In this document: piece after piece, positions 42,634 through 64,000 of the stretch
Layout: every line of letters begins with the position of its first letter
Position numbering within the stretch: the first letter of the stretch is position 1
NCBI GenBank assembly: GCA_021234155.1
Contig: JAJEKV010000033.1
Coordinates: 7,368,635 to 7,432,634, forward strand
Length of the DNA stretch: 64,000 nucleotides
DNA from: Isoetes taiwanensis
Lineage: Eukaryota > Streptophyta > Lycopodiopsida > Isoetales > Isoetaceae
Direction: 5' to 3'
Program-made: the position numbers and the translations under genes
The notes under the pieces: generated by a model
Database searches by the model: none
What the model saw: the letters and a program-made list of their open reading frames with translations, nothing else
What the model was told of the DNA's origin: nothing

Positions 42634-42700
42634 TAGAAGAAGTATAGTTAAACCTTACAGTAACAGTTATAAACAGCATAAATGATATGGCAGACATTTT

Positions 42701-42715
42701 GAAAGAAAGGGGAAA
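42701..42715 (+). promoter_or_regulatory. Polypurine tract of the copia element
   Basis: gaaagaaaggggaaa ends exactly at the 3' LTR start and is the expected plus-strand primer. Confidence 0.93.
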
Positions 42716-43385
42716 TGTTAGAAAAATAGGTTCTTTCAAATTATCTGATATCATGAGAAGTAAGAATTGAGGCAGAAGAGATCAGTAGAAAAAGGGAATA
42801 ATACAATTCTAACCTATGGTTTATAGAACATATGTATGATGGAAGCATTATAGATGTGAAGGTTTATTAACCTAAGTTCGAATGGTGAAGTGCATGAGGT
42901 TGCATGATCGATTGTATCTAGAAGACCCAAGTTCAATGGTAAGTTAAAGCTTTTATAAGACCATTGAACATGAAATATAGTTATGAGACCATCGAATATA
43001 AATTTGGAACTTAAGGTTCTCGATGGAGGGAATGAATCGTTTGAATATAGAAACGGCCGAAGAAGTCGAAGCACCGATCACCTGATGCTATGGATTCTGC
43101 TAGGCGGCCGGATCTGCACCATTCGGTGAGGTCTGGCCCTATATATTGAAGTTGTAATCGAAGATAATGGAAGGCGATCCGGAATGAAGGTGTACCAATA
43201 GGCTTGTGCTATCGGTCAGACAAGCTACAGTAATTGGGTCAAAGCCCAAATGAATAGTGCCTAAGTAATGGTATTCAAGCATTTTTGTGGTATTCCTCAT
43301 ATTACTTGATTGACCATGAATTAGATGTTGTCTAGTTAGTCATAAATCCTCATGAAATTATTCCATTGATCTTGAATCTATCTCA
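42716..43385 (+). repeat. 3' LTR of the copia element
   Basis: 670 bp, TGTTAG...TCTCA, followed immediately by the target-site copy attt(t) at 43,386-43,390. Confidence 0.96.
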
Positions 43386-43390
43386 ATTTT

Positions 43391-46075
43391 CACCATATCC
43401 TTAAGCCTTCCTAGCTGTCTCTTGCAGATTGCTCAGTGATTCCAGTGCGTCCATAAGGAGTTCCTAGCAAATTTCTACATATACGAACACACTATGCAAG
43501 GCTGCTATGAGTACACTGGTTGCAACATTCGGATCTCCTTTATTTCGTGTTATGCTAAACCAAAGAGCAAAAAACAGCAATAATTGAACTGGGCTCATTC
43601 CACCTCTGAATTGAATTGCGCAAGCATTCTCTACCTCAGAGAACCCTAATTAGGGCTCTATTATAGCTATAAATTAGGTCGTGGATGAATTGACCGATTT
43701 CTCATATCTACAAGAACCTAATCCATGTAGAATCAAAGCCATACCTTTTATTAAGGGTTCAGGATCTCTCCAAACGTTCTTATGCCAGATGTGTTGTGGC
43801 CAATATATGTAGCATAATAACAGGGGGTTTCTTTGTGTTTTTGTACGCTTTTCACTAAGGTTTTCCTATGATTTCGTGATGTATTCAAATGGATGTACTA
43901 ATGCGTACATCTAGAGTGCACCATTTCTGAGCCATTGATTTTAGCCTTTTTTTTTTAATGGTCAACAACCAATGGCTCACAACAAAAGCCCTTTTTTTGT
44001 GCGTGTGGTGCATAATGGTCAACAACCAATGGCTCACAACAAAAGCCCTCTTTTTGTGTGTGTGGTGCATAATGGGCACATGAAGGGCTTGAAGGGCGCA
44101 TGTAGTGAAGTTTCCCCGCCGGCAACACATTTCTTATCATAACTTTTGATCCAGAGCTCTGTTTCAGATGATTTTTATTGCGTTGGAAAGCTCTCTCTGA
44201 GATCTTTTTGATAGTGTATGATATGGATATGTTTGGCTAAGTTATCTATGCCAAAACTTTTGATCCAGAGCTCTGTTTCAGATGATTTTTATTGCGTTGG
44301 AAAGCTCTCTCCGAGATCTTTTTGATAGTGTATGATATGGATATGTTTGGTTAAGTTATCTATGCTAAAACAGCAATTTTTCGGCCGGGTTTGGTAGGCT
44401 TTCACATCCTACCAGCTGATTAATACAGGATTGCGCTATTGGATATTGTTTTATGGCTCATTCCGAATGAAGCTTGCAAAAAATTACCATGCATTTTTAG
44501 ATTTTGAGGCAGTTATTAAGCAAATTCTAAGGCTTCTAGATCCTTGTGCTAACAAGCAGAAAAGTTTTCCACTTTGGTTTCTCACCACAAGAATCCATGG
44601 AGGCCAAAGGCTGCTGTTAAATTCCAGTTGAAAAATGTTTGTGTATGGGTGTTGCAAACTTTATGACTTTCAGAATAATGGGATCAATCTGCTCTATCTT
44701 TATGGTAAGTTTTACTTGTGTTCTATTTGTTTTATTGTGATGAAATTCAAAAGCTACAGGTGATGAAAGCCTCAAATGAATTCTAGTTTTTTTCTGGCTT
44801 GAATTCTAAAATTTTTGTCACACCGGGGGGGGGAAGGGGTTGACGTCCCTAAAGCCCCGAAGGGGCCAAAAAAAATTTTTTGCAACACAAACTATTAACA
44901 TCCAACATATAAAAAATAAATCCCCCAACACATAACAACCAACACATAACATAACAACCATTGACATTAACAACCAACACATAACTACCATTGACATTAA
45001 TTAACACAACCATTGGGTCCAACACATTTAAATTAAAATCTCCCTTAAACCCCCTTTGATTTGGGTGCATATTCACACGGGGGATGACGTAGGGCAGCGA
45101 GAGCCCTCATAATTGTATTTTGCACGTACGAAATCAACACCATATAGTATTCCGCTTGAAATCTTATAGTATTTTGCGAATCTTGTTATACAGTATAGCA
45201 AATTTTGTACTTGCATACCCCACAAACGAGGAACTTTACATACGGTGTAGATTAAGGAATAAGGGGTCAATATGCCTATCCAACAGCTCTCGTTGCCTGG
45301 AGTCACCCCCCATGTGCATATGCACCCAAACCAAAGGGGGTTTAAGGGGGTTTAAGGGGGATTTAAGCTTATTTGTTCCTGCAGTGCTAGTTCTAACAAT
45401 TGTGCCAAATTTTTAGGGCACAAAATGTATTTCGTCCATGGTATATTCCATGGATTCTTTATCCAAACAACGGTTTTCTTTATCCAAACATTGTGTACAT
45501 ACTCTAGACCATCAGAATAAGTGGATGGCAATGTCCATTCTTCATGCAAATAAATGCAATTTAGGATCCTCTCTACCTATGAGCTTAATGCCCAAAATTC
45601 AATCACTATAATATCTTTTAGAGTCCATGTCATCCATGATACCATGTTCATTCCATGTCCTGCTTCTTAGAGCCATGAAATGTGTAGAAAGCTTCATTCA
45701 TCATTGGACAATTGTTAACCCATTGAATCATGGAACTAAGTTGAACCATCGTACTTGGTTTCAATTTCCTCTCTTTTCCAGCCCTTAAAGGTCTAAACAA
45801 GCCTCAAGAGTTTTTTTATTGTCAATACCGAGTTCTCCATGTAAGCAAGTGCGTCCATATCTTTAGAACCATTGAGGGCAAATTGAGCTTATTGGACGCA
45901 TTATTAGGCCTTGGCCAGTAAACCACCAAGTCCTTTAAGATACAACTATATCCAGCTATAGAAAATTTTCTTAGTTGGGCCACATTTTCATAACTTATAC
46001 AAGTCTAACAAATCAAATAAACCCCTGTATCCAGTGTATATGCATTCCATATTATCCACAATAAAAAAAAAACCC
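43391..46075. other. Non-coding stretch with several short repeats
   Basis: No gene is seen. A 57-bp tandem doublet lies at 43,957-44,070 (ggtcaacaaccaatggctca). A 114-bp tandem doublet lies at 44,143-44,256 and 44,257-44,370 (gatccagagctctgtttcag). An A/C-rich minisatellite of caacacataac type lies at about 44,884-45,005. A G-run with a short hairpin (aagccccgaaggggcc) lies at about 44,825-44,868. 43,797-43,905 is the second copy of the dispersed repeat seen at 29,285-29,390. Confidence 0.55.
45035..45364. mobile_element. Foldback / MITE-like element with about 50-bp inverted arms
   Basis: Left arm 45,035-45,088 and right arm 45,302-45,364 are reverse complements over about 50 bases with a handful of mismatches (shared core gcacccaaaycaaagggggt). 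The right arm carries an extra expansion of the 12-13 bp unit gggggtttaa. A 213-bp spacer lies between. No coding capacity; the target duplication is not resolved. Confidence 0.7.
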
Positions 46076-46211
46076 CCAGTCACAGCTAGCCTTAACCTCA
46101 GTCAACTAGCCGGAACATCTACCGAGGTCAATCCCTACGGTAGTATTATCTGCCCACACTAAGACACAAAGTCTATGGTGGCATTTGTTGTCCCAAACTT
46201 AAAGTATTTAA

Positions 46212-46459
46212 AGGTGTTTTTTTGCTAGTGGTACACAAAAAAATGAAATTCAAGCACTAAATCAGCACCTTCATAGGTAACGCATGTAATCAGTAATCAC
46301 ATTGCCAATATGCTCATTATGTTATACCCAATATTTTTTGAAGGGCAATGAAGGACATAGGGAAGGGCAATGAAGGGCAGCTTGAAGGGCAATCAGCACT
46401 AAATCAGCACCTGTGTCGCGACATGCTAAATTGTACATCACTAGTAAAAAAAAGACCCT
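46212..46459. mobile_element. Tourist-like MITE, 248 bp
   Basis: Present only in unit A; units B and C read gtatttaaccc straight across. The element is flanked by TAA (46,209-46,211 and 46,460-46,462). Its ends are inverted repeats (AGGTG then seven T then GCTAGTG, against AGGGTC then eight T then ACTAGTG on the other strand). A 3-bp TAA/TTA duplication and AGG-type ends are typical of PIF/Harbinger-derived MITEs. An internal gcactaaatcagcacct duplication is visible. Confidence 0.85.
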
Positions 46460-46886
46460 TAACCCATATCCACGACCATGAAATAAACCATTACGACTCC
46501 AATTATACAAAGTCTATAGTTCAAACTAACACGTTATACTTTGCCCTTTCCTTGTGTCAAACAATCCTATATGTACCATTCTCAACAAATAAACTTACTT
46601 GCATCCCCAATCAAATGCTATTTGCCCATAGGGCCTAAAAAAAGCCTTTACCGAATGGAAGGATAATACTTAGTATTTAGATTTCAGAAACAAATCATGT
46701 GCAAATCATGTTCACATGATATTCTTGACCTCAGAATATGTTCATGACCAGCTTAACCAAAACCAGAATTTACATAGTGGATATTCCATGGAAACAGCAA
46801 GAAATAGAACATGCAGATTTGTGGACCATGTTCAGTCATTACTATCAGCATCATAACTTCATAGTGATTTGTTCCACACTTTTAAG

Positions 46887-47050
46887 ATAAGATAAGATAA
46901 ATTTTTACATCCACGGGAACCCAACAGGTTATGGGACGGCACATGCAAGGGCAACAACCCATCTAAAACCTGGGGACTAGGCCCCATCAGCAAACACAAT
47001 AACCAAATATTAAAAGGCTACCAAGAATAAGATAAGATAATGCTAATGCT
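46887..47050 (-). mobile_element. SINE-like insertion with (TCTTA)n tail
   Basis: Absent from units B and C. Read on the minus strand it ends ...gttcccgtggatgtaaaaa then ttatcttatcttatctt, very like the 3' end of the SINE at 10,830 (gttaaaatattatctatcta). (taaga)n tracts lie at both borders and could be target duplications. No clear A/B boxes were seen, so it may be a 5'-truncated SINE. Confidence 0.5.
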
Positions 47051-47506
47051 AGTAGTAAATACTGATCATAACTCCTTCAAAGTATAAAATCGTCCATCCT
47101 CAAGCCCATAATCCAGAAAAAGCAAATAAATGACAAATAGAAGAGAAACCTAGTACCTGCAACCAATCAGTACTATATTAGCATAAAAATGGTAATATAG
47201 CAAGGGCCAAAAGGTACAGATGGTTTCTCGGTTCTTCACCGGTCACCATTTGTAACCTCTTTGCTCCTTACAAAATTAAAAAGCATCAAGAACGGACAGA
47301 ATGTAGAGTTTAAAATACTCATCCTAAGCATAAAGCATACTGAACTTTATATTTCAGAGAAATAGAAGCAAGAGCCAAACATTGAATCAGAGTAATCTCT
47401 AATATTCAAAAATTACAGCAGTGAAACTTGTCCTTAAAAAATTAAATCGTATCAGCATTTTATCAGGCTGCCACATCTTTTATAAAAAATACTTAACTAG
47501 CTTGAA

Positions 47507-47824
47507 TCAAACCTGATACTCGTCTTGTTCATAATCAGACTCATTGTCTGATGTCTGGTTGTTGGTATAACCCATTGAGGAGGACCCCCCCTGTTTATTT
47601 CCAGCCCTGACTTGCTTAGCCCAGTGAGTATTACCCCTGTCAGAATTGTATCCTTGCTCATCTTGTAGAGGGCGTTTTTGCCCATTTGCATTGCTGCCAT
47701 GCATCTCCTCCATTATCTCAGACAAATCTTGAATGGAAGAATATAATAGTTCGTCTTCAATCAAATGGCAATCGGAATCTGAACTGACTGAGCGTCCATC
47801 TGAGTCATACTCATATCCATACAT
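47507..47824 (-). CDS. Exon-like acidic frame, unit A (unrecognised)
   Basis: 105 residues beginning MYGYEYDSDGRS and ending NESDYEQDEYQV, acidic and low-complexity, with no recognised domain. The same frame recurs at 58,953-59,273 (unit B) and 62,181-62,411 (unit C, altered), with changes that break its start region in B and shorten it in C. It is probably an exon of an unidentified minus-strand gene. Conserved AG/GT dinucleotides occur around other segments of the unit. Confidence 0.35.
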   Translation of the reverse strand: MYGYEYDSDGRSVSSDSDCHLIEDELLYSSIQDLSEIMEEMHGSNANGQKRPLQDEQGYNSDRGNTHWAKQVRAGNKQGGSSSMGYTNNQTSDNESDYEQDEYQV

Positions 47825-48370
47825 GTCTTAAAAAGCCCTAAAGTTCTTGGTGGGAAAAAATTAAAGACTAAGGTATGTGGAATATATGGTGCATCATCAT
47901 GAAGCATGTGAATATCATCCAGGGCTACCGGCAACCATGCTTTTCAGGAAAACCAAGAATTTTTGTGGTATAAAAGAACTTGCCTTGTGCCAGAAGTTTT
48001 CGACAGAGCAACCGCCATATCTTTACTTCACAGGAAAAAATCCCCCCAGTACCTTGTGCAAGAGGTTCATGGCGGATCAACTGCCATATCCTTACCATGC
48101 AGAGCATGTACTGAGTACTCCGGTGAACAGGTCTCACGCTTCCCCGGTCTATTCTATGCAGAACTAGGTTAAACTAGCAGTGGACCAAGGTTTTGGTCCG
48201 AAAAGATAAACCTATTTTATGGAGTTAGAAAAAACGAAAACCCTTTTACTATAAAGGCCTTTATGCTCCAAATTAAAATACATTATTTATGTCACCATGG
48301 TAATCTCAACCATTACACATCAAATAGAATAAAGATAAAGCATTGAATGACTTAATATATGAGCAAAATG

Positions 48371-48509
48371 GCATCGATCCGAGCCGTCGGATCGGCATTC
48401 TGGGAAGGGGCGAGCTGCTATATGAGACGTCATTCCAGTTGTAGCAGGTTATCGGCGTTCTTCTCACAGCAGCAGCAGTTCTCCATCTTTGCCTTTGACT
48501 CCCTCCTCA
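48371..48509 (+). repeat. A1 repeat, left end of the DIRS-like element
   Basis: 139 bp, repeated as A2 at 55,694-55,835 with small differences in the first 45 bases and near-identity afterwards (ctatatgagacgtcattcca onward). It includes a small hairpin (atccga/tcggat) and a TATA-like ctatatgag at 48,418-48,426 that could be part of a promoter. Confidence 0.92.
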
Positions 48510-51500
48510 AAGATTCGCTTCACGCGATACCGTTCTACTCAGCAGCGCTTCTTCCTCACATGGATCGAGATCCTTTTCTTCGAGAGCTAGCTGGGGTGGT
48601 TTTTCTCATCAGTCTGCTCGTCTTACTCTGGAAGGTATGGCCTCTTCTCCTCAATTGCCTGTCTGCACAGGTATAGCCCCTTTTTCGGTTGGTATTTTTC
48701 CGCTTGTTGGCGGTTGTAGGATGATTCTTTTGATTGGTTTATGAGATGGGGCTGTCGAAGCAAACAACGTGATTGATTGGGTCGGGTCCCTCCGGATCTG
48801 GTTTCTTTGGGGATTTGGTTTTCAGCTAGGTATGCAGGTTCATTTGGGAGATGGTGGTGGTTCGCCCAGTTTGTCTGATGCAACAAGCATGCTTTGTTTT
48901 TTGGGAAGAGATTTCATGGTTTGTTGGGGACATGCAGGTGCTTTTCCCGTTCGAGATCTAATCCATCTTAGCATATCTTAGCATGCAGGTTGCGATTCAG
49001 GTCAGCCCTTTGGCCCCTGCCTCCCCCCTCTGATCATCGCTTGGGATTCTTGTCTGGGCAGGCCCCAGCCCGGCTTCGGTGATATATGCTCGCCCGTTCT
49101 CCCGGGAGGGTCGATTTGCAGACCCGGCGGCTGGTTCTTTTGTGCGGTAAGGGGACCTCGGTTGTTCAACCATTGGTCCAAGCACAGGCATCGGAAGAAG
49201 GAAAAAAGGGGGGGGGAGGTCTAATTTCTCTGGCTAGATCAGGAGCGGGACAGGATCATAAGCGATCTTGGCGGCGGAGTTCGACAACCATAGTGGGGGA
49301 GGTTTAGCCACCGCCGTCGTCCCAGTCTGAGCTTCGACGAGGCGATCGAGGCGATTTTTTTTTTGCCGATTTCCTCGCTGGTCGATTCAGCCTCTCTTCC
49401 TCGTTTGCCATCTCTGCGGCTAGTTTCAGATGAGTTTTTATTTGGGTTATCTCTGATCTTTTTTCGATTTCATGGTTGACATTTGTTTTTATTTTTAGTA
49501 CTGCTTATTGGTTCTTCTTTAGCTTTCACTACATGCATGGTTATGTTTAGGCTTAGCTTATCAGTGGTCTAATTTGGGCATGCATGGTGGGCGTTCCTTG
49601 CATTAGGCTGGTTTGCGGTCGGTTTTCATTATGCTTATTTTATGGATGGTTGTTTTGGGTTGATTTATCCTCACCAATGTTTATTGAAAGCTTAATTGTA
49701 AATTTGGTCTTAGGTTTGTTTTTTGCCCAACCCTTTTTTAAGCCCCTTTCTTTCTCCTCTCATGCATTGCTCCTACTTTTTCCCTGGCTTGCTTTCTCTG
49801 CTCTCATAGTAAACCTTTGCTGTTCGATATGGCTTTTGGTTGTCCTTGTTGTTCTACGGATCTGGGCTCTGTTGGAGTTTTCTCACCCCCTTCATCACCC
49901 CCCATGGTTGACATGGCGCGACATCATCTTTACACGGAGCACTTGGAGGTGCTTCACCCCTCTGCGAGGAACGGTTTGCAGTGGGAGCGAGAGGACATCG
50001 ACTGGCCAGCCGAGTTTTTCCGATCATTATACCTTTATGCCTCCTTGTCTCCTTCGGCGCGGCGAGTGTTTGGGCTTTCGGTAGCGTGGATTCTCATCGC
50101 CATCGCTTTCTTGGCGATGTCATTCTACAATGGGGCTTTCGGCCCTCGAGCCACTTTCTCGAAGGAGATTCTTTACATCCTCAAGGCCCCGCCCACCCCA
50201 TTTTCTTCCCATATACCCGGCGTTAGGCATGGGGTGGCTGGCGTGATTCCTTTGAGGTTGGGTTGTGGTTTTTTGTAATAATCGGCATATCCGCCGTTCT
50301 AAGGAATAAGGGGGCAAAACCCCATTTGATTTTTTGTGCTATGTTTAAACTCTTTAGTTGTTTATCCGTGTTGGTAATGTTATGGATGGCTTAGTGCTTT
50401 TTAGGGCGCTTTTTTATAAGTTCCAATCGTATTTTTAGGTATGGCTAGATTAAATTCTCATGGGGGATCGGGTGGCATTCTTATTTCACTTATGTGTATT
50501 TTTTTGTAGACTTTAAATTCCTTTTTATGTTTCCTTTTTCAAAGTAGTGCTATGGTTGTTTTTGCATCCGCCATATGTGCTAAGGGGTTGAAATTCTTGC
50601 ATCATTATCTTAGATGGTTTCTTATTAAGTCTTGCATACTTCATGATTCTTACTTGGGGGGGGAGGCTAAGGTTAGCATGCATCCGGTTTTTCCCAATTA
50701 TGTCTCAACTCTTTGGTGGTTGTATTTGTGTTTTTAACGTTGTGGATGGCTCATTGCTTTAGGCATTTTCCTATTATAAGTTCCTTCAAGATTCTCTTCT
50801 ATTTTGGCTAGACTAACTTCTCATGGGGGGCCTAGGGTGGCATTCTTATTTTCGGCTATGCGTAATTTTCGTAGACTTACATTTCATGTTTTTCCCTTTC
50901 AAGTTTGGTATTATGATTGTTTGGCATCCGACATATATAAGGGTTGATGGTTTTTGGTTTTGATGGGGGCGAAGTTCTTAATCCTTATTCTAATGGTTTT
51001 ATTATTAGTTTTGTAGATTTCATGATTTTACTTTTAGGGGTGAGGCTTCCGGTCTTAGTTTTCTTTGCACCCGGAGGGGGTACTTACAAAATATGTTTGT
51101 GGAAAGGGGGTATAGGCCCATCTAACATTGATATGCATTGGCAACAATGGTACTTATTTTTGGTCAGGCTACCTATGGGGATGATGTCATTCATTATAGT
51201 CTGTTTTTTTGCATAGCTTTTTCTATTCGTCTTGTGGTTTGTATTGTCTTCCCAGAAGGTTGCTCTCATCCTAACTATGTTGGCTTTTTATCTTGTGCTG
51301 TTTTCGGGGGGGGGAGGACCAAGAAATGGTACTTTGGTGTTTCTTTTCTTTGTGGCCCAAGGTTTTAGGGGTTTTTTCGCTGTTGTGTCCATAGGCTTAA
51401 GGTACATATCATGGGGCGCATGGGGTCGTGACGTGCCTTTCCTCTTTTCCACCTCGTTTCATGCCGCAGTTTTTTCTTTCGTATCTATTCTTACGTGTTC

Positions 51501-51511
51501 CTCGTTTGCAG
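48510..51511 (+). other. DIRS-like element, 5' region with unclear reading frames
   Basis: A short frame (MDRDPFLRELAGV, hydrophobic core, about 48,560-48,636) ends at a gtatgg donor-like site. A 153-codon frame (49,817-50,278) includes MVDMARHHLYTEHLEVLHP and one hydrophobic segment; its function is unknown. 50,280-51,510 is non-coding and ends in a pyrimidine-rich acceptor-like cgtttgcag at 51,503-51,511, so an intron is possible. Confidence 0.45.
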
Positions 51512-52580
51512 GTTATTGAGCTCATCCCTTCCGCTTCCGGAACCACGGCTTCTACCTCGTCCGGATCTCTTTCCCCCCAACGTCTAGCCCGGGCTGCGGG
51601 TGCACGTCGTCAGCGAGAAGCCTCTCTTTCTCCTGACACGGATTCAGGGGAGCCTGCCTCGGTTTCCCCCCCGTCATCACCCTCCACCTCTTTTTCCTTT
51701 TGGCCCTCATTTTTTTGCGTCACCTTCTTCCCTTTTCTCCATCACGGGGTTGCTTCCCCTTGTTCTCTCCCCATATGGCTCCGCTTTTTTCATCCACTCC
51801 ACCTCTTTTTGGCCCCTTCTCCTCCCTCTTGCCTCTTCTCCTTTTGATTATACCCAATTTGTTATGCGAGCTCCAACAAGGGAGGGCTACTTTGCGGGAG
51901 TCCGGTCTTGATTACACAGCAGCTCTCCGTCCAGACGCGAACTTGAACACCTTGCCCGGGATATAGAGAGAGCTGCTTTCGGCCGTGCCGACTTTTTGAG
52001 CAGCGACTCCCTTACGACATTATTACGAAGTTCGGCGTCGGCTATGGACACCGGTTTCACTTTGGATCTATGGACGGCTCGCCATGTTGGGGGCGGCTAT
52101 TGGGAGGGCGTCTTTTTATGGCGGAAGAAGGTAAACGTTTGGCGGACAAGAGATGAAATTTGTTTTGATTGCCGACCAACACGGCCCGCGAGGTTGCCCT
52201 TCAGTTTAGTGAGTCCCCACGTCTTGGTTTTCTTCCGATGAATCTAAACGAACGCAAGGCCAAAAGTTTGCCCATGAGAAACGTCTATCCCGTTCAGCGT
52301 TCTTCTCCTTATCCTGCCCCTCCCGTTTATCCCCTTCTTAAGCCCTCCCGCGCCAACCCATCCCTCTCTTATTTTTACTTGCGGCCGTTTTTATGTCCAT
52401 AAAATTTGGTTTTTTTCGTCGACTTTTTCTCACAATGCAGTTCCCCCCATGTCTCCACCTTTTTCTCCACTTTTTTCTCAGACTGCACCACTTGCTCCCT
52501 CTCCTTTGTTGACTCTATCTCCTCAATCACCCCAACCCCCTTTGCCTCCGTCATCTCCATCCTGGTCTTCGTAATGTCCA
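51512..52580 (+). pseudogene. DIRS-like element gag-like region
   Basis: After the putative acceptor the frame reads IELIPSASGTTAS and SLSPQRLARAAGARRQREAS, a Ser/Pro/Arg-rich disordered start, then after several frame changes (TREGYFAGVRS, about 51,865-51,905; later EEGKRLADKR) a region in the place of gag. No zinc knuckle. Assignment is by position before RT rather than by a domain. Confidence 0.5.
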
Positions 52581-52934
52581 TGCAAGTGCATTTTTAGTGT
52601 CTCTGATGTAATTATGGTTTGTGTCATCAATAAAAAGCGTGCTTAATTTGATGTGTTATCTTTTTCTGCAGATTGCCAAGTTTTCGCCTCTCCCTTGCCT
52701 CATTTCCCCTTTGACCCTACCGCCCTTGATACCCACTATGCTACTTTTTGTGGCCGCCTCTGCCTTGTTTACCATTTTGGCACTCTATTTCCATGAACCC
52801 CTTGTTATTTCTTGGATTCAGCCAGTTTACCCCCTTCCTTGGGCACACGGGCCCCCTTCCCAACCATTTTTCCGTCCCAACCTTTTCATTATTTGTCCTC
52901 CCAACTCCCATTTGCCCGCTCCATTATTCAGGTG

Positions 52935-53365
52935 ACCTTACGCGGGGAGCAATCATGCAAGTTCGACCGCCCTTTCTTTTGTTCTCCCTTGGGAGTCGTC
53001 CCCAAGGGGCCCACAAGTTCGCCTTATTCTTGATTCGCGTCACCTTAATTCTTCCTTATGGGTCCCATCCTTCCGTTCTGAGTCCCTTTCTGATGCCTTG
53101 TCATTACTTCCAACCTCTCGATTTTCTTTTTACTCTTGGATTTAAAGTCGGGACTATCATCATGTTCCTATCGGCCCCCCCACACCATACCTTCTTGGGT
53201 TTCCAACTCGACGGCTTATTTTATGTATTTACAATGCTCCCCTTTGGTCTTGCATCCGCCCCTTTGTTTTTACCAAACTTATCGCCCCTTAGTTCGTCAC
53301 CGGCGTCTTTCTTAGGTCCGGCGCACTCCTTACATGGGCGATTTTCTTTTCTTGACCCAACGTGA
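52935..53365 (+). pseudogene. DIRS-type reverse transcriptase, broken
   Basis: Blocks in several frames: FDRPFF.SPLGVVPKG (about 52,960-53,010); LILDSRHLNSSLW (from 53,023); a TAA at 53,143-53,145; then RDYHHVPIG, LLGF, and a segment reading MLPFGLASAP in another frame (about 53,235-53,265); FVFTKLIAP; and YMGDFLFL at the catalytic position (usually YLDD), near 53,328. These blocks and their spacing are those of DIRS reverse transcriptases. At least three frameshifts and a lost catalytic Asp make it inactive. Confidence 0.85.
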
Positions 53366-53729
53366 ACTGTCGCCCTCAATATGATTATCATTTCTGATCG
53401 CAACATGCCGGTTTTCTTATTGCATGGCCTAAATGTCGTCTCCAGATTTCCCATCGCACAATTTTCCTTGGGTTCCTCCTTGACTCTTCTTCTATGATTA
53501 TTTGTTTGTCGTCCAAGAAGTTAGAAAAATTTTTCCGACTTTCCTCATCTATTCTCTCTTCCTCTCGTTTGACTTTCGCCATCTTGCTAGATTCCTTGGT
53601 TTTCTCGCAATCTCTCCGTGATCGTTTTTCGGTTCCTTGGTCTCTTCCCTCACCTTTTCTCTTATCTTCTCATCTGACCTTTTTTACGGGATGCCCCTAT
53701 TTCATTATCATCGTTAGCCCGCATGGAAA

Positions 53730-54490
53730 TTTTGCTCGGGAATGATGGCCCAGCTCTCTCTCGTTTTCGCCCTATTTTCTCCTCTCGGGTCGGGCCGTCC
53801 ATTTGTTTTAGGTTTTGATGCTAGCGCTTTTTGGTTGGGGGTTGGTTGCCGCAGCCAAAACCGTGTTGATTTTATGGGTCTTTTTCTGCGGCTGAATGCC
53901 GGGTCATCCACATGGCGTGAGCTTTTGCTTTTTTCACGGTCCTCTGATCGGCTTTACCTTTTATCCATTCCGGTGGTCACGGTCCGCGGGGATAATTTAA
54001 ACGTCGCCTCCATTCTTCGGAAGGGTGGTTCGCTTCTCCGATATTCACCTCTCGGCTTTGGAAATTTTTCTTCGTGTTTCCATTGTGCTATTTACGTAGA
54101 GCGGTTTGGATTCCCGCTCGAGCGAATGGGCGGATTACCTTTCGGTTTGCCTCGGTCCGATGAGTTTGCCCTCGGCGCCATGGTGTTTCCAAAGCATATT
54201 GATTCTCAGATGGGGCCCGCATCATGTTGACCGTTTTGCTTCACCTATTAATCACAAACTCCCCGTTTTTAACACCCGGTTTGCATATCCCCATCGTATC
54301 CCGCCAGACGCCTTCACCTATGATTGGCACATCTTTAATAATTACTGTTTTCCCCCCGGCTATGATTCCCCGTGTCTTGCACCATGCGGCGGCTTGTCGC
54401 GTTCAGATGACTTTGGTGGTTTTATATTGGCCCTCAGCCCCCTGGTGGCCTCTTCTATGCAATGGCGAGTCATGGGCACCTTTTATTGTG
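53730..54490 (+). pseudogene. DIRS-type RNase H and downstream conserved block
   Basis: The frame from 53,742 reads LGFDASAFWLGVGC (first Asp near 53,817), STWRELLLFSRS (Glu) and VRGDNLNVASILRKGG (Asp, Asn). A frame change leads to ADYLS and then WGPHHVDRFASPINHKLPVF and NTRFAYP (about 54,204-54,280) and DWHIFNNYCFPPGY. The HVDRFAS...N.RF segment immediately after RNase H is a hallmark of DIRS-group polyproteins. Confidence 0.87.
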
Positions 54491-54649
54491 GATGTATTAT
54501 TTTTTGATGCTTTTTCTCATGCTTTGTTGCCAAGTTTGTCAACCTCATTTACGGGGTGTCGACGTCATGTAGCTATTTATGTTCTTCGCTGTCACTTTAA
54601 TACGGAATAATATTTGGATTCTCTTGGTTTATTTCGTCGTCAATTTAAT

Positions 54650-55620
54650 GTGGATTAACGAGTGCATTCTTTCTTTTGTGGCAGCTGCTTCGCGCTTAAT
54701 TCCTCCTGCTCACATTCCTCTATTCTTTTCTTCGCTCCCCGTAGTTTTTTCATCCCGCGCCCCTTCTACCATCTCTGCCTATGTTGCTATGTTTCGGCGT
54801 TTTGTACTCTGGTGCCGCTCACACTCTATATCTTATCTCCCTGCTTCCCCTTTCGCTGTCGCGGCGTTTTTGCTTCTCTCCACCAACCGGATATGTCTTC
54901 CTCCCCGGTCGCCACAGCCTCGGCTGCGATATCCTTTTTTCATCAGCTTTTCAATCTTCCCTCGCCCTCGGTTCTCCCCTTGCCATCTTTAGCTCGTCAC
55001 GCCGCATCTCGTCATGCCGCCCTCCTCGCACTTTTTGCCTCTTCTTCCCCATCACGTCGTTCCATGTTACTCGGTTTCGCCCCCCACGGCCGCCTTTTGC
55101 GTCCCAGGCTTTCGGGCCGCCCTCATTCTCCTTTCCAGCGGCTTTTTGCGCATCTCAGGCCCCGGCTTTGAATTGGCCGCGACTTATCCTTCTCTCGCCC
55201 CACGTCAGAGATTTTTATCCCGTCCGGCCCAAGAGAATCCGGCTTGCCGGGGCCACACCATTTCGCTTAGCTTCGTTTGCCCTCCCACCTTTGCACGGTC
55301 ACTATTCTTCAACGTCTTGGCCGTCACCGGCTACCCTCTCTTGGACCCTCCCTCGTGACCCCTTTTCGCTTTAACCCAGTCCCTGCGCCCCTATCCTATC
55401 GAGCGGCTACCGTTCTTGGTGCGGCGGTGTTTGCTTTCAAGGATTTGGCCTTAGGCCCTTTCGGTAGGGGGACACATTCCATTTCCGGGTGAAACTTCAG
55501 CGGCATCTCGAGGGGTTTTCTCCGGACTGGCGGCCAGCGCGACTGCAGACGATGGCGTTGACCGTCACACTCTCGCTATGTGTTGCATGACTCGAGTCAT
55601 CACCGGAGGTCTCCGCAGCT
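54650..55620 (+). pseudogene. DIRS-type tyrosine recombinase, broken
   Basis: This enzyme replaces integrase in DIRS elements and inserts a circular DNA copy. The N-terminal core-binding domain is readable (SSRAPSTISAYVAMFRRFVL from about 54,750, then LPASPFAVAAFLLLS; next frame VATASAAISFFHQLF). The first catalytic Arg sits in GFLRIS (55,140-55,157). Farther on, the HxxR region survives only as PFR-stop-GDTFHF (55,456-55,487), with the His position reading Gly. I could not identify the nucleophilic Tyr with confidence. Several frame changes. Confidence 0.75.
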
Positions 55621-55655
55621 TGGGCCTTTAGATTGAGAAGTTCTCTGGCGGGTCG

Positions 55656-55686
55656 GCCGGTTTGGTGTGCATTGCGAGTCCCTTAC
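55656..55686 (+). repeat. B1 repeat (internal copy of the right end)
   Basis: 31 bp (gccggtttggtgtgcattgc then gagtcccttac), identical to B2 at 56,632-56,662. It lies 7 bases before A2, so B1-A2 reproduces the joined ends of a circular form. Confidence 0.93.
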
Positions 55687-55693
55687 TGAATCG

Positions 55694-55835
55694 GCATCGA
55701 TCCGAAAGCCGTTTGATCGGCATTCCGGGAAGGGGCGAAGCCGCTATATGAGACGTCATTCCAGTTGTAGCAGGTTATCGGCGTTCTTCTCACAGCAGCA
55801 GCAGTTCTCCATCTTTGCCTTTGACTCCCTCCTCA
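55694..55835 (+). repeat. A2 repeat (internal copy of the left end)
   Basis: 142 bp match to A1. Both copies end at cctcctca, after which they diverge. Confidence 0.93.
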
Positions 55836-55939
55836 CCCGCCCCATAGGTTGTTCCCAGGTTTTGTTACATTGTTTTGTTTCATTTAAGTTGTTGTTACAC
55901 CTGCGGGTGCATGTTATTTTCCACCTTTGGAGGTCATGC

Positions 55940-56165
55940 AGAACTTTATATATCTATTTTATCTGGTCCACCCACAGGGTGATGCGCTGCGTATATATAT
56001 GTATTTTTTCAGCTGGTCCACCCATGGGGTGATGCGCTGCTTTTTCATGTCTACATATATCTATTTTTATCTGGTCCACCCTCAGTCATGCGCTGCTTAT
56101 ATATCTATATGTATATTTTTTCATCTGGACCACCCTTGGGGTGATGCGCTGCTGTTTCATGTTGT
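55940..56165 (+). repeat. Minisatellite between A2 and B2
   Basis: Four degenerate units of 50-75 bp share ctggtccaccc and ggtgatgcgctgc, separated by (ta)-rich stretches (atatatctat). They lie in the non-coding right part of the DIRS-like element. Confidence 0.8.
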
Positions 56166-56435
56166 TATGGTGTTATTCCAGTAGGTTGATCCACCTTCAG
56201 GCGATGCGGGTTTATTAGATTTGTCACCACATGATCTACTCCACACCAGGTCCTTTTGCACAGGTGGGTTGGTTCCATCGGATATTTTTTGGGTCTAACC
56301 TATGACGGGTGCTTGCTTATGGTTTTCTTTCAGGTCCTTAGACATCTCGCACTCAAGTCCGTGATCCAGCTCTAGCGTGCTCCTTGGCTATGGTTGCAGG
56401 CAGCTTATGAGGGGGTGGTGACGGTTTCTCATTAG

Positions 56436-56475
56436 GGTTTTCCTCGAAAACCCGAAAGGGCGGGGTTTTTCATCC
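56436..56475 (+). repeat. Palindromic block shared with position 2,597
   Basis: ggttttcctcgaaaacccga and agggcggggtttttc form stems (AAAACCC/GGGTTTT), and the block is nearly the reverse complement of 2,597-2,634. Within the element's 3' region it could help RNA 3' end formation. Confidence 0.6.
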
Positions 56476-56631
56476 CGATGAGAAGGTGTCACCACTAGCC
56501 TCGTCTTGTCTTGCCTATGTATTATATTTATGAGGGGGGCTCGACGTTGTTCCTATGGTCAGCCCCCCACTGACTACATTTTTTTGAACTGCTGTAAACT
56601 GCTGCTGTGATGAATGAAAAGCCCTATCTAT

Positions 56632-56662
56632 GCCGGTTTGGTGTGCATTGCGAGTCCCTTAC
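56632..56662 (+). repeat. B2 repeat, right end of the DIRS-like element
   Basis: 31-bp match to B1. Three further bases (cag) precede the resumption of the host unit at aatgtggtgt. Confidence 0.93.
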
Positions 56663-57491
56663 CAGAATGTGGTGTACCCAACATCCAAAGGTTCTTTAGA
56701 GACTAAACTTAGAACTGCATAATATAAAGCCCCAGGATACCACCCCAAAATGCCAATGTTCACAGAGAAAAAAGGATATATGGTCAAAGACCTTTAGATT
56801 GAAACAGATTCCCCTTGTACAGGTCAATCATGGTTGGATTACACCATAAAGCTTACCACACAGTCAATACAATGGATAGTTTAAAGATCACTTTGTTCCC
56901 CCAGATTTTTATTCGAGGAGCACTGAGTAAATAGCTTTAAGCCCAATCAAAAAAAGCCTACCACCTACCGTAGGAAATGAATGGCCCCAGTATGGTTATG
57001 CCGTGAACATAGGGAGGTGGACCCCTACTGTCACAGCAGAGGTCCGACCCATAACCTATTATTAAATCAACCCAATATTGAAGTAAAATGTACAAAACAT
57101 CAGGGCGATACGTACCCTTCAAAAAGCAGCAGAAATTTCATGTATCAGGTCTTTGGCATCATAAGGTAAGCCTGGGAATGTGTGTTCCTTGATATATTTG
57201 ATAACTCTTCTTCTTATACCATACTGGTCGAAACCATTGTCCACAAAACATTGCATCAGATCTTTAATGTCAGCAGCCGCTCCAATAGGGCACTAATTTA
57301 GAGTCTGCCCTTAGACCATTATACGTTTTCGTGCACACCTTGCTATTGGACATTGGTATTCTGCAAATAAATATTTTTTATAGTCATATACACAAAGTGT
57401 AAGTAGTGTAAGAAGAAAGGAAAACTTTGCCATACTTGGTCAAAGTATCCAGCAATATATGATAGGCCGAGTGGCATAAAGGTATGAAACT

Positions 57492-57812
57492 TTAGTCAGG
57501 TAGTGAGTCATAAATAGAGTTAATGACTAGATAAATACTGTCCCAATTGTCACCAGCTTTATTGATCCGAGGTGCCACAGAAATCAACTCACTAAAATCC
57601 AGTAGAAAACTCTTCAGCCTTTCTGGCCTCTCTCTTTGTACAATATATTCGTGTGCCTTAATGTCCTTTATGCACCCAAGAATGGTCTGGACAGCATAAC
57701 TAGGGCACTCGATTTTGATGTTGCTGTAACCAAGGTCAGCTAGATCTTTTTTCCAAGTAGGTAAAATCAGTGGAATCTGGATATCTCTATCCTGAATAAA
57801 ATGCAAGTACAT
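57492..57812 (-). CDS. Exon-like frame, unit A (unrecognised)
   Basis: 106 residues (MYLHFIQDRDIQ...NSIYDSLPD) with balanced composition; protein-like but not recognised. The same frame recurs at 60,643-60,951 and at the window end (63,776-64,000) with few changes. An exon of a minus-strand gene is likely: the downstream segment at about 57,354 begins after a typical acceptor (tttatttgcag on the minus strand). Confidence 0.4.
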   Translation of the reverse strand: MYLHFIQDRDIQIPLILPTWKKDLADLGYSNIKIECPSYAVQTILGCIKDIKAHEYIVQRERPERLKSFLLDFSELISVAPRINKAGDNWDSIYLVINSIYDSLPD

Positions 57813-58952
57813 GCAAGTTAGGTGTAAATAAATAAAAGGTGCAGCATGAATATAGTATAATCAACATGAGCTAAATACTTAAGTTTGGGATTGGTAAGAC
57901 CAATGAACAGAAGTATCTAAAAAAAAACCAGTCGCAGCTAGCCTTAACCTCAGTCAACTAGCCAGAACATCTACCGAGGTCAATCCCTACGGTAGTATTA
58001 TCTGCCCACACTAAGACACAAAGTCTATGGTGGCATTTATTGTCCCAAACTTAAAGTATTTAACCCATATCCACGACCATGAAATAAACCATTACGACTC
58101 CAATTATACAAAGTCTATAGTTCAAACTAACACGTTATACTTTGCCCTTTCCTTGTGCCAAACAATCCTATATGTACCATTCTCAACAATAAACTTACTT
58201 GCATCCCCAATCAAATGCTATTTGCCCATAGGGCCTAAAAAAAGCCTTTACCGAATGGAAGGATAATACTTAGTATTTAGATTTCAGAAACAAATCATGT
58301 GCAAATCATGTTCACATGATATTCTTGACCTCATAATATGTTCATGACCAGCTTAACCAAAACCAGAATTTACATAGTAGATATTTCATAGAAACAGCAA
58401 GAAATAGAACATGCAAATTTGTGGACCATGTTCAGTCATTACTATCAGCATCATAACTTCATAGTGATTTGTTCCACACTTTTAAGGGAAGATATTACTT
58501 GTAAATACTGATCATAACTCCTTCAAAGTATAAAATCGTCCATCCTCAAGCCCATAATCCAGAAAAAGCAAAGAAATGACAAATAGAAGAGAAACCTAGT
58601 ACCTGTAGCCAATCAATACTATATTAGCATAAAAATGGTAATATAGCAAGGGCCAAAAGGTACAGATGGTTTCTCGGTTCTTCACCGGTCACCATTTGTA
58701 ACCTCTTTGCTCCTTACAAAATTAAAAAGCATCAAGAACGGACAGAATGTAGAGTTTAAAGTACTCATCCTAAGCATAAAGCATACTGAACTTTATATTT
58801 CAGAGAAATAGAAGCAAGGGCCAAACATTGAATCAGAGTAATCTCTAATATTCGAAAATTACAGCAGTGAAACTTGTCCTTAAAAAATTAAATCAGATCA
58901 GCATTTTATCGGGCTGCCACATCTTTTTATAAAAATACTTAACTAGCTTGAA

Positions 58953-59273
58953 TCAAACCTGATACTCGTCTTGTTCATAATCAGACTCATTGTCTGATGT
59001 CTGATTGTTGGTATAACCCATTGAGGAGGATCCCCCCTGTTTATTTCCAGCCCTGACTTGCTTAGCCCAGTGAGTATTACCCCTGTTAGAATTGTATCCT
59101 TGCTCATCTTGTAGAGGCATTTTTTGCCCATTTGCATTGTTGCCATGCATCTCCTCCATTATCTCGGCAGACAAATCTTGAATGGAAGAATATAATAGTT
59201 CGCCTTCAATCAAATGGCAATCGAATCTGAACCGACCGAAGGCCCATCCGAAGTCATACTCATATCCATACAT
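58953..59273 (-). CDS. Exon-like acidic frame, unit B (altered)
   Basis: Counterpart of 47,507-47,824; near the start two small indels turn the SDGRSVSSDSD segment into a different reading (FGWAFGRFRFD) before the frame is recovered. It ends with the same NESDYEQDEYQV. The damage suggests that this copy is not under protein-level constraint. Confidence 0.3.
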   Translation of the reverse strand: MYGYEYDFGWAFGRFRFDCHLIEGELLYSSIQDLSAEIMEEMHGNNANGQKMPLQDEQGYNSNRGNTHWAKQVRAGNKQGGSSSMGYTNNQTSDNESDYEQDEYQV

Positions 59274-60642
59274 GTCTTAAAAAGACCTAAAGTTCTTGGT
59301 GGGAAAAAATTAAAGACTAAGGTATGTGGAATATATGGTGCATCATCATGAAGCATGTGAATATCATCCGTATACCTACCGGCAACCATGCTTTTCAGGA
59401 AAACCAAGACTTTTTGTGGTATAAAAGAACTTGCCTTGTGCCAGAAGTTTTCGACAGAGCAACCGCCATATCTTTACTTCACAGGAAAAAATCCCCCCAG
59501 TACCTTGTGCAAGAGGTTCATGGCGGATCAACTGCCATATCCTTACCATGCAGAGCATGTACTGAGTACTCCGGTGAACAGGTCTCACGCTTCCCCGGTC
59601 TATTCTATGCAGAACTAGGTTAAACTAGCAGTGGACCAAGGTTTTGGTCCGAAAAGATAAACCTATTTTATGGAGTTAGAAAAAACGAAAACCCTTTTAC
59701 TATAAAGGCCTTTATGCTCCAAATCAAAATACATTATTTATGTCACCATGGTAATCTCAACCATTACACATCAAATAGAATAAAGATAAAGCATTGAATG
59801 ACTTAATATATGAGCAAAATGTGGTGTACCCAACATCCAAAGGTTCTTTAGAGACTAAACTTAGAACTGCATAATATAAAGCCCCAGGATACCACCCCAA
59901 AATGCCAATGTTCACAGAGGTCAAAGACCTTTAGATTGAAACAGATTCCCCTTGTACAGGTCAATCATGGTTGGATTACACCCTAAAGCTTACCACACAG
60001 TCAATACAATGGATAGTTTAAAGATCACTTTGTTCCCCTAGATTTTTATTCGAGGAGCATTGAGTAAATAGCTTTAAGCCCAATAAAAAAAAAACCTACC
60101 ACCTACCGTAGGAAATGAATGGCCCCAGTATGGTTATGCCGTGAACATAGGGAGGATGGACCCCTACTGTCACAGCAGGGGTCCGACCCATAACCTATTA
60201 TTAAATCAACCCAATATTGAAGTAAAATGTACAAAACATCAGGGCGACACGTACCTTTCAAAAAGCAGCAGAAATTTCATGTATCAGGTCTTTGGCATCA
60301 TAAGGTAAGCCTGGGAATGTGTGTTCCTTGATATATTTGATAACTCTTCTTCTTATACCATACTGGTCGAAACCATTGTCCACAAAACATTGCATCAGAT
60401 CTTTAATGTCAGCAGCCGCTCCAATAGGGCACTAATTTAGAGTCTGCCCTTAGACCATTATACTTTTTCGTGCACACCTTGCCATTGGACATTGGTATTC
60501 TGCAAATAAATATTTTTTATAGTCATATACACAAAGTGTAAGTAGTGTAAGAAGAAAGGAAAACTTTGCCACACTTGGTCAAAGTATCCAGCAATATATG
60601 ATAGGCCGAGTGGCATAAAGGTATGAAACTTTAGTCGGGTAG

Positions 60643-60951
60643 TCAGTCATAAATAGAGTTAATGACTAGATAAATACTGTCCCAATTGTCACCAGCTTTA
60701 TTGATCCGAGGTGCCACAGAAATCAACTCACTAAAACCCAGTAGAAAACTCTTCAGCCTTTCTGGCCTCTCTCTTTGTACAATATATTCGTGTGCCTTAA
60801 TGTCCTTTATGCACCCAAGAATGGTCTGGACAGCATAACTAGGGCACTCGATTTTGATGCTTCTGTAACCAAGGTCAGCTAGATCTTTTTTCCAAGTAGG
60901 TAAAATCAGTGGAATCTGGATATCTCTATCCTGAATAAAATGCAAGTACAT
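60643..60951 (-). CDS. Exon-like frame, unit B
   Basis: 102 residues, counterpart of 57,492-57,812, with substitutions such as YSNIKIE to YRSIKIE and LLDFSEL to LLGFSEL. No family recognised. Confidence 0.4.
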   Translation of the reverse strand: MYLHFIQDRDIQIPLILPTWKKDLADLGYRSIKIECPSYAVQTILGCIKDIKAHEYIVQRERPERLKSFLLGFSELISVAPRINKAGDNWDSIYLVINSIYD

Positions 60952-62180
60952 GCAAGTTAGGCGTAAATAAATAAAAGGTGCAGCATGAATATAGTATAAT
61001 CAACATGAGCTAAATACCTAAGTTTGGGATACAAAAGTCACTGGTAAGACCAATGAACAGAAGTATCTAAAAAAAAACTAGTCACAGCTAGCCTTAACCT
61101 CAGTCAACTAGCCGGAACATCTACCGAGGTCAATCCCTACGGTAGTATTATCTGCCCACACTAAGACACAAAGTCTATGGTGGCATTTGTTGTCCCAAAC
61201 TTAAAGTATTTAACCCATATCCACGACCATGAAATAAAACATTACGACTCCAATTATACAAAGTCTATAGTTCAAACTAACACGTTATACTTTGCCCTTT
61301 CCTTGTGTCAATTCTATATGTACCATTCTCAACAAATAAACTTACTTGCCCAATCAAATGCTATTTGCCCATAGGGCCTAAAAAAAGCCTTTACCGAATG
61401 GAAGGATAATACTTAGTATTTAGATTTCAGAAACAAATCATGTGCAAATCATGTTCACATGATATTCTTGACCTCATAATATGTTCATGACCAGCTTAAC
61501 CAAAACCAGAATTTACATAGTAGATATTCCATAGAAACAGCAAGAAATAGAACATGCAGATTTGTGGACCATGTTCAGTCATTACTATCAGCATCATAAC
61601 TTCATAGTGATTTGTTCCACACTTTTAAGGGAAGATATTACTTATAAATACTGATCATAACTCCTTCAAAGTATAAAATCGTCCATCCTCAAGCCCATAA
61701 TCCAGAAAAAGCAAAGAAATGACAAATAGAAGAGAAACCTAGTACCTGTAGCCAATCAATACTATATTAGCATAAAAATGGTAATATAGCAAGGGCCAAA
61801 AGGTACAGATGGTTTCTCGGTTCTTCACCGGTCACCATTTGTAACCTCTTTGCTCCTTACAAAATTAAAAAGCATCAAGAACGGACAGAATGTAGAGTTT
61901 AAAGTACTCATCCTAAGCATAAAGCATATTGAACTTCATATTTCAGAGAAATAGAAGCAAGGGCCAAACATTGAATCAGAGTAATCTCTAATATTCGAAA
62001 ATTACAGCAGTGAAACTTGTCCTTAAAAATTAAATCAGATCAAGATTTTATCGGGCTGCCACATCTTTTATAAAAAATACTTAACTAGCTTGAATCAAAC
62101 CTGATACTCGTCTTGTTCATAATCAGACTCATTGTCTGATGTCTGATTGTTGGTATAACCCATTGAGGAGGATCCCCCGT

Positions 62181-62411
62181 TTATTTCCAAAATACGACTT
62201 GCTTAGCCCAGTGAGTATTACCCCTGTTAGAATTGTATCCTTGCTCATCTTGTAGAGGGCGTTTTTGCCCATTTGCATTGCTGCCATGCATCTCCTCCAT
62301 TATCTCAGACAAATCTTGAATGGAAGAATATAATAGTTCGTCTTCAATGAAATGGCAATCGGAATTTGAACTGACTGAGCGTCCATCTGAGTCATACTCA
62401 TATCCATACAT
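62181..62411 (-). CDS. Exon-like acidic frame, unit C (truncated)
   Basis: Counterpart of 47,507-47,824, keeping MYGYEYDSDGRS. Small changes near 62,178-62,192 (ccccgtttatttccaaaatacg) shift the frame after HWAKQV, so the acidic tail is lost. Confidence 0.3.
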   Translation of the reverse strand: MYGYEYDSDGRSVSSNSDCHFIEDELLYSSIQDLSEIMEEMHGSNANGQKRPLQDEQGYNSNRGNTHWAKQVVFWK

Positions 62412-63392
62412 GTCTTAAAAAGACCTAAAGTTCTTGGTGGGAAAAAATTAAAGACTAAGGTATGTGGAATATATGGTGCATCATCATGAAGCATGTGAAT
62501 ATCATCCGGGGCTACAAGCAACCATGCTTTTTCGGGAAAACCAAGACTTTTTGTGGTATAAAAGAACTTGCCTTGTGCCAGAAGTTTTCGACAGAGCAAC
62601 CGCCATATCTTTACTTCACAGGAAAAAATCCCCCCAGTACCTTGTGCAAGAGGTTCATGGCGGATCAACTGCCATATCCTTACCATGCAGAGCATGTAAT
62701 CGAAAACTCCGGTGAATGTGTCTCACGCTTCCCCAGTCTATTCTATGCAGAACTAGGTTAAACTAGCAGTGGACCAAGGTTTTGGTCCGAAAAGATAAAC
62801 CTATTTTATGGAGTTAGAAAAAACGAAAACCCTTTTACTATAAAGGCCTTTATGCTCCAAATCAAAATACATTATTTATGTCACCATGGTAATCTCAACC
62901 ATTACACATCAAATAGAATAAAGATAAAGCATTGAATGACTTAATATATGAGCAAAATGTGGTGTACCCAACATCCAAAGGTTCTTTAGAGACTAAACTT
63001 AGAACTGCATAATATAAAGCCCCAGGATACCACCCCAAAATGCCAATGTTCACAGAGGTCAAAGACCTTTAGATTGAAACAGATTCCCCTTGTACAGGTC
63101 AATCATGGTTGGATTATACCCTAAAGCTTACCACACAGTCAATACAATGGATAGTTTAAAGATCACTTTGTTCCCCTAGATTTTTATTCGAGGAGCATTG
63201 AGTAAATAGCTTTAAGCCCAATAAAAAAAAACCTACCACCTACCGTAGGAAATGAATGGCCCCAAGATGGTTATGTCAGTGAACATAGGAGGGTGGACCC
63301 CATCATCACAAGAGGGTCCGACCCATAACCTATTATTAAATCAACCCAATATTGAAGTAAAATGTACAAAACATCGAGGCGACACGCACCTT

Positions 63393-63626
63393 TCAAAAAA
63401 AAAAGAAAATTTCATGTATCGTGTCTTTGGCATCATAAGGTAAGCTTGGGAATGTGTGTTCCTTGATATATTTGATAACTCTTCTTCTTATACCATACTG
63501 GTCGAAACCATTGTCCACAAAACATTGCATCAGATCTTTAATGTCAGCAGCCGCCCAATAGGGCACTAATTTAGAGTCTGCCCTTAGACCATTATACTTT
63601 TTCGTGCACACCTTGCCATTGGACAT
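63393..63626 (-). CDS. Exon-like frame, unit C (unrecognised)
   Basis: 77 residues (MSNGKVCTKKYNG...AKDTIHEI then a Phe run). A single-base deletion at about 63,555 joins two frames that stay separate in units A and B (gccgctccaataggg there, gccgcccaataggg here). On the minus strand the segment follows a clear acceptor (tttatttgcag, about 63,638-63,648), and in A and B it precedes a gtacgt donor-like site. The central ADIKDLMQCFVDNGFDQYGI is the most protein-like part; family unknown. Confidence 0.35.
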   Translation of the reverse strand: MSNGKVCTKKYNGLRADSKLVPYWAAADIKDLMQCFVDNGFDQYGIRRRVIKYIKEHTFPSLPYDAKDTIHEIFFFF

Positions 63627-64000
63627 TGGTATTCTGCAAATAAATATTTTTTATAGTCATATACACAAAGTGTAAGTAGTGTAAGAAGAAAGGAAAACTT
63701 TGCCACACTTGGTCAAAGTATCCAGCAATATATGATAGGTCGAGTGGCATAAAGGTATGAAACTTTAGTCGGGTAGTGAGTCATAAATAGAGTTAATGAC
63801 TAGATAAATACTGTCCCAATTGTCACCAGCTTTATTGATCCGAGGTGCCACAGAAATCAACTCACTAAAACCCAGTAGAAAACTCTTCAGCCTTTCTGGC
63901 CTCTCTCTTTGTACAATATATTCGTGTGCCTTAATGTCCTTTATGCACCCAAGAATGGTCTGGACAGCATAACTAGGGCACTCGATTTTGATGCTTCTGT

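Follow-up and report, generated by a model that had tools for sequence, protein, structure and literature searches.

A 64,000-nucleotide stretch of the quillwort Isoetes taiwanensis (NCBI GenBank assembly GCA_021234155.1, contig JAJEKV010000033.1, positions 7,368,635 to 7,432,634 of the forward strand; hereafter the window) carries an 8.3-kb retrotransposon of the tyrosine-recombinase (YR) group DIRS, bounded by the split direct repeats A1...B1-A2...B2 that define the PAT type. With high confidence, the element is assigned to a PAT-type family of a land plant that comprises several subfamilies, has other members with open frames and probably moved in the form of a DNA circle joined to an (A)AT target, while many frameshifts of the window copy are attributed to nanopore errors.

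The repeats lie in direct orientation at the positions given by an earlier reading of the letters alone (the sequence-only reading): A1 and A2 align over 147 columns with 94.6% identity (48,367-48,509 and 55,689-55,835), and B1 matches B2 at 31 of 31 bases. The reverse transcriptase (RT), the RNase H with its HVDRFAS...N.RF block and the recombinase motif GFLRIS were likewise recovered where that reading had seen them, ordered on the forward strand with the reading frame shifting between them. The leader of about 2.9 kb between A1 and gag contains an additional open reading frame (ORF), termed ORF0. The element is inserted into one of several 3.15-kb tandem host units, and the uninterrupted site GAGCAAAATGTGG is indeed kept in two neighboring units, as had been claimed. 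The empty sites are thus real, but the ends deduced from them had been misplaced by up to 3 bases; the span was corrected to that in Table 1, in which the AT at the ends is ambiguous, because the right end reads GAAT before the differing host bases and the G of AT|GGCATC is also present in the internal junction.

The sequence-only reading had further proposed that this lineage hosts a whole family, recognizable by copies with the same repeat layout and a recombinase bearing R, HxxR and Y, and both were found when the genome (1,658,258,908 bases in 1,110 contigs) was searched, all family counts being lower bounds. Of 190 candidates for a 601-base RT probe, 40 were scored; 14, the window copy among them, are 84-100% identical and the other 26 show 70-73%. 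When a pol protein served as probe, 67 of 9,662 candidates were scored and yielded 75 matches, and at least 13 stop-free pol copies cover at least 653 of the 658 residues, six at 82-100% identity (query included) and seven at 56-57%. In family 1 all 12 fetched copies have the A pair, and 8 of them also show the B pair as a hit of its own; both pairs occur in five of the eight family-2 loci, the A pair alone in one and neither in two; both are seen in one of the two family-3 loci, L029 (A pair 162 bp, 98.1% identical; B pair 32 bp, 100%), but not in L030. At least three subfamilies with the A1...B1-A2...B2 layout therefore reside in the genome. Both of the unpaired A hits that were fetched proved to be solo units, built as A-tail-B2, with a length of about 0.95-0.98 kb and AT junctions (L031:4984-5931 and L032:4989-5970), a possible counterpart of solo long terminal repeats or a non-autonomous form.

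The genes can be read in open form outside the window. The pol ORF of L023 encodes 658 amino acids (aa) and matches RVT_1 in Pfam (1.9e-15), and its recombinase ORF (340 aa) matches Phage_integrase above the cut-off of that family (4.3e-8). The open recombinases of L023 and L022 contain FLRISE, SKRDQ, HSAR and SRYV, so that R, K, HxxR and Y are all present; in L030, R, K and HAGR are seen and the Tyr region is lost. Together with the layout in three subfamilies, these recombinases support the PAT-type DIRS identity first proposed from the letters. A zinc knuckle of the form CX2CX4HX4C is found in the gag of L009 and L025, and no rve integrase was hit by Pfam in the scanned pol, gag and recombinase ORFs. 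Codon-position differences between the pol genes of L009 and L023 amount to 108/46/348 over 654 codons, with a nonsynonymous divergence (dN) of 0.12 and a synonymous divergence (dS) of 2.28, the latter saturated. The open gag, pol and recombinase frames are spread over several copies, L009 having gag and pol open and L023 pol and recombinase. A 367-aa frame of L009 considered as recombinase was rejected as the wrong frame.

Homology searches place pol in the DIRS group. Searching with the stitched pol of the window retrieved 57 proteins (E up to 1e-3), of which 55 carry RVT_1 and 10 the Dam-like domain PF05869; few bear names, P0053 being named Ty3-G by its source. When these 57 were aligned by tblastn to the raw, unstitched window, 141 of 168 pieces fell inside the element, while a separate Ty3/gypsy RT (23.6-24.2 kb) accounted for 25 and the neighborhood of 39 kb for 2. 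A search started from an open plant pol retrieved 35 proteins; 12 of these have PF05869, and one of the 35 is the Closterium protein P0206 (45% over 28% of the query length). At its end, pol can be aligned with the Dam-like domain found in three homologues having PF05869 hits, which marks this part as a methyltransferase-like (MT-like) region; when the plant pol was itself scanned with Pfam, no Dam-like domain was listed at E up to 0.1. Judged by the homologues with this domain, the RT and RNase H are of DIRS type. An RT tree was built from 213 columns and 84 of 87 rows (P0054, P0056 and P0206 omitted; proteins shorter than 440 aa left out) and rooted on the gypsy RT of the window, whose branch is very long. 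The four plant copies in it, drawn from three subfamilies, group as a single clade (SH-aLRT 99), to which the unnamed P0001-P0003 attach (95). The placement asked of such a tree was thus obtained in part: the plant copies group amid homologues including proteins with the Dam-like domain and far from the gypsy RT, but among references that include no labelled PAT or Toc element.

The insertion junctions were compared among copies. Before GGCATC, the left flanks of 12 family-1 copies all end in AT (AAT in nine, GAT in two, TAT in one), a count from which the thirteenth copy L014 was omitted because it abuts another element; in family 2, four of five end in AT (AAT three, GAT one, TTT one), giving 16 of 17 insertions overall. 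The right end reads GAAT in all seven of the 13 family-1 copies that have the exact B2 motif twice (CAGAAT in six, GAGAAT in one). The variable left triplet is therefore ascribed to the target and the constant right end to the element. The internal junction B1-A2 reads CCCTTACCAGAATGGCATCG in L011, L015 and L014, the last of these showing it at the left end. Compared with its two empty sites, the window copy has no target-site duplication longer than a short shared core; the other 16 flanks, 15 of which end in AT, have no empty sites of their own.

These junction letters are what a B-A circle recombining with a short matching target predicts. An RNA copied from A1 to B2 would have its missing ends rebuilt on the internal B1-A2 copy, and a DNA circle was then likely formed and joined by the recombinase to a short target reading (A)AT. 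Recombination between ...CAGAAT|GGCATC..., the junction of the circle, and a chromosomal site with (A)AT at its end would leave no target-site duplication. Integration without target-site duplication has been described for DIRS1-like elements (PMC3266345). Within L014 (357-640), the element starts directly at the tail and B end of another element, the B|A junction expected when a circle joins the end of an element already in place.

ORF0, which begins with MxFxCPxCS, occupies a single frame in L021, L022, L023, L025 and L026 and almost does so in L011, while in the window as assembled its frame leaves the relatives near 50,072 and further pieces lie in other frames. A profile built from those six copies detected it, whole or in pieces, in the window, all 12 family-1 loci and six of eight family-2 loci; the same search did not find it in the two family-3 loci, L029 and L030. 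Differences by codon position between L025 and L021, L022 and L026 are 22/12/55, 22/12/54 and 23/13/71 with 0-3 gap columns, the 300-base flanks being flat over codon positions and gappy, and for comparisons with a dS close to 1, dN/dS is 0.12-0.13. Between the window and L011 the differences are spread evenly across codon positions (32/26/34; dN 0.20, dS 0.26), which speaks against selection but is expected if the differences of the window are errors or decay. No credible match was found among Pfam and PDB sequences (best E 0.26 and 0.33). By its substitution pattern, ORF0 is a conserved orphan gene under purifying selection in two subfamilies.

Whether the window copy is dead, as the sequence-only reading stated, is a separate issue. 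A truly decayed PAT copy, with frameshifts representing real mutations after insertion, would explain the 108 mismatches and 48 frame-changing gap events against L009 in the pol region, the frame-changing gaps in all 12 family-1 comparisons (14 to 81) and the four substitutions and two gaps between its own A1 and A2; interior blocks differ between copies by 20% or more in places. This explanation is nevertheless considered unlikely, since the damage is unevenly distributed. The A1 of the window is identical in five of the 12 other fetched copies and differs by at most one position in eight, so that nine of the 13 copies have a clean A1, yet the A2 repeats of these nine show 39 substitutions (14 A>G, 12 T>C, 2 C>T, 2 G>A among them) and 43 gap events, with three or more differences in eight of the nine; the A2 of L011 equals the A1 of the window. 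As A1 and A2 share one sequence, composition is controlled for. Deamination of methyl-cytosine was rejected as the cause of the divergence, with C>T and G>A making up only four of the 39 substitutions, a spectrum opposite to that process. In addition, interior mismatch rises with CG+CHG density (Spearman 0.69, 118 bins), and mismatch in CG/CHG-rich bins is 0.97% for the 3 bins no more than 240 bases from the ends and 15.4% for the 20 bins inside.

The published assembly, with a stated total of 1,658.30 Mb (204 scaffolds and 909 contigs), was made from Oxford Nanopore (ONT) R9.4.1 reads polished with racon and then with pilon using 2x150 Illumina reads (PMC8566536). Short reads anchored in unique flanks would allow correction near the ends but not of the interior, and the uneven damage is read accordingly: much of it is probably nanopore base-calling error at methylated sites in the repeat, although some decay may be real. 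With many frameshifts taken as assembly errors, the copy cannot be called dead from the current assembly.

Several observations weigh against the reading of a mobile PAT-type family whose window copy is damaged largely by assembly error. Pfam found only one chance-level match (0.36) in ten unstitched frames of the window, nothing meaningful in the stitched pol string and a sub-threshold SAM-like hit alone (0.0047) in the stitched recombinase string, and the RT tree contains no labelled PAT or Toc reference. The left flank of L022 ends in TTT, and movement is deduced here from assembled sequence, no transcript, circle or new insertion having been seen. With regard to the error pattern, bins of middle density near the ends average 6.6% mismatch (3 bins), to which the poor match of L010 and L015 at B2 probably contributes; A1 is noisy too in four of the 13 family-1 copies (L014, L017, L018 and L020); and four of the six family-2 loci with an A pair show A1/A2 identities of 97.8-99.3% (the others 96.9% and 87.9%), perhaps because these copies differ enough for short-read mapping.

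Other identities fare worse. A Dirs1-like element with inverted repeats, an Ngaro or a VIPER element is very unlikely: RT and RNase H are common to YR retrotransposons and an MT-like domain also occurs in Dirs1, but no inverted repeats of at least 20 bases, and hence no Dirs1-like inverted termini, were found within 46.0-59.5 kb, the split repeats are direct in three subfamilies, and the MT-like domain speaks against both Ngaro and VIPER as defined in PMC3266345. Contaminating DNA of an alga or protist, conceivable as the Isoetes plants were grown non-axenically, is even less probable, for the window lies within a 15.8-Mb scaffold with plant-like genes, the tandem host units carry the empty site and the copies are spread over many large scaffolds. 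The vacuolar iron transporter of the window has its nearest matches (about 70%) in unnamed sequences and Sphagnum, followed by Diphasiastrum, liverworts and Selaginella, and a UDP-glycosyltransferase gene is also present; the host is almost certainly a land plant. Least likely of all, a gypsy-type or caulimovirid element with acquired DIRS-like repeats has a precedent in the charophyte KnitGypsy-Dnmt3, in which such repeats surround gypsy genes (PMC5890265), and Ty3-G is among the nearest solved RTs as well as the source name of P0053, but it is contradicted by the open YR ORF with its phage-integrase match, the lack of rve hits in the scanned ORFs, the homologues with a Dam-like domain and the position of the gypsy RT far outside in the tree, though on a very long branch.

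Table 1. Features of the PAT-type element and its target sites in the window
Feature	Position	Strand	Basis or remark
Whole PAT-type element, 8.3 kb	48,370-56,668	+	Repeats, empty sites and junctions compared over 13 copies
Terminal split repeat A1	48,371-48,515	+	Repeat comparison among fetched copies
Upstream ORF0	49,829-50,275	+	138 aa in open copies; unnoted in the sequence-only reading
gag region	51,369-52,571	+	Open in L009 (404 aa, CX2CX4HX4C zinc knuckle); frameshifted in window; knuckle maps near 52,374
pol region	52,647-54,607	+	Open in L009 (662 aa)
RT within pol	53,001-53,476	+	
RNase H within pol	53,805-54,147	+	HVDRFAS...N.RF block
MT-like region at pol end	about 54,171-54,607	+	Unnoted in the sequence-only reading
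Tyrosine recombinase region	54,651-55,612	+	Frameshifted in window; open ORF in L023
Recombinase landmarks	GFLRIS 55,140-55,157; His of HxxR 55,475; Tyr codon 55,577-55,579	+	
Internal repeat B1	55,656-55,686	+	Repeat comparison
Internal repeat A2	55,694-55,838	+	B1-A2 is the predicted circle junction
3' tail, A2 to B2	55,839-56,631	+	Imperfect tandem repeats of about 50 bp
Terminal split repeat B2, ending CAGAAT	56,632-56,668	+	B2 match itself 56,632-56,662
Empty target site, next tandem unit	59,804-59,835	+	Sequence comparison
Empty target site, second tandem unit	62,942-62,973	+	Sequence comparison

The window holds further repeats. The tandem host units (46,000-64,000; 3.15 kb, about 97% identical) contain small repeated frames without a Pfam match (47,510-47,827 and 57,495-57,860, both on the reverse strand). 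On the forward strand, a broken Ty3/gypsy element with RT and integrase pieces, the RT of which served as tree outgroup, occupies 22,195-26,119; at 34,512-36,000 lie adjacent open frames, the longest of about 250 aa, that have a YIDD motif and match nothing in Pfam; and a Ty1/copia element at 37,714-43,389 has 674-bp terminal repeats with 98.5% identity and an open pol of 1,172 aa (RVT_2, 7e-78). Rfam and tRNA scans of the window found nothing.

A 2022 review of land-plant transposable elements omits DIRS, as found only in green algae among plants (PMC9033089), a 2024 review includes DIRS in the retrotransposon classes of plants, the passages concerned giving no case (PMC11630846), and the word DIRS does not occur in the main text of the Isoetes paper (PMC8566536). 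Automatic tables report small DIRS amounts in the fern Ceratopteris and in pine. The view that such elements are under-described in plants thus holds for structural accounts, none of which was found for land-plant DIRS elements in the open-access literature, and not for labels; since automatic labels exist, what is presented here is the first structural account in the literature searched rather than the first label. We lean towards the broader reading that land plants were never free of DIRS and that a lycophyte hosts a living, diversified PAT radiation with its own ORF0, overlooked through nanopore errors at methylated CG/CHG sites. A multi-copy family with open genes and a relative in the streptophyte alga Closterium (P0206) makes vertical descent versus horizontal arrival directly testable, and it bears on the plant ALOG factors, which have been traced to DIRS-type recombinases (PMC3537659). 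The contrast between A1 and A2 is also a practical warning that "dead" copies in nanopore plant assemblies may be intact.

Among known systems, the structure fits the echinoderm form of Pat1-like elements rather than Kangaroo or Toc3, by the features listed in PMC4157794. This form (SpPat1), also reported in Volvox carteri, Lottia and Nematostella (PMC4157794), shares with the quillwort element the split direct repeats, a zinc-finger Gag, an MT-like domain, a recombinase on the same strand and, as we read that source, an internal B1-A2 located downstream of the recombinase; the differences are the land-plant host, the leader of about 2.9 kb with an ORF0 conserved in two subfamilies and the three divergent subfamilies in one genome, and the likeness drawn here is a structural one. 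Kangaroo from Volvox carteri likewise combines PAT-type split direct repeats with a DIRS-group pol, but its recombinase is inverted, its Gag lacks a zinc finger and its internal repeat lies between MT and YR (PMC4157794), whereas the quillwort recombinase lies on the pol strand. Toc elements of green algae have the PAT layout and a same-strand recombinase, while Toc3 is without the Gag zinc finger (PMC4157794) that the gag of L009 and L025 carries. The ALOG-containing DIRS1-type element of Ectocarpus and marine animals resembles the present family in its DIRS membership, MT-like domain and extra 5' ORFs (PMC3537659), and is distinguished by other terminal repeats (PMC3537659) and by its ALOG domain, which Pfam did not list for the L023 recombinase ORF.

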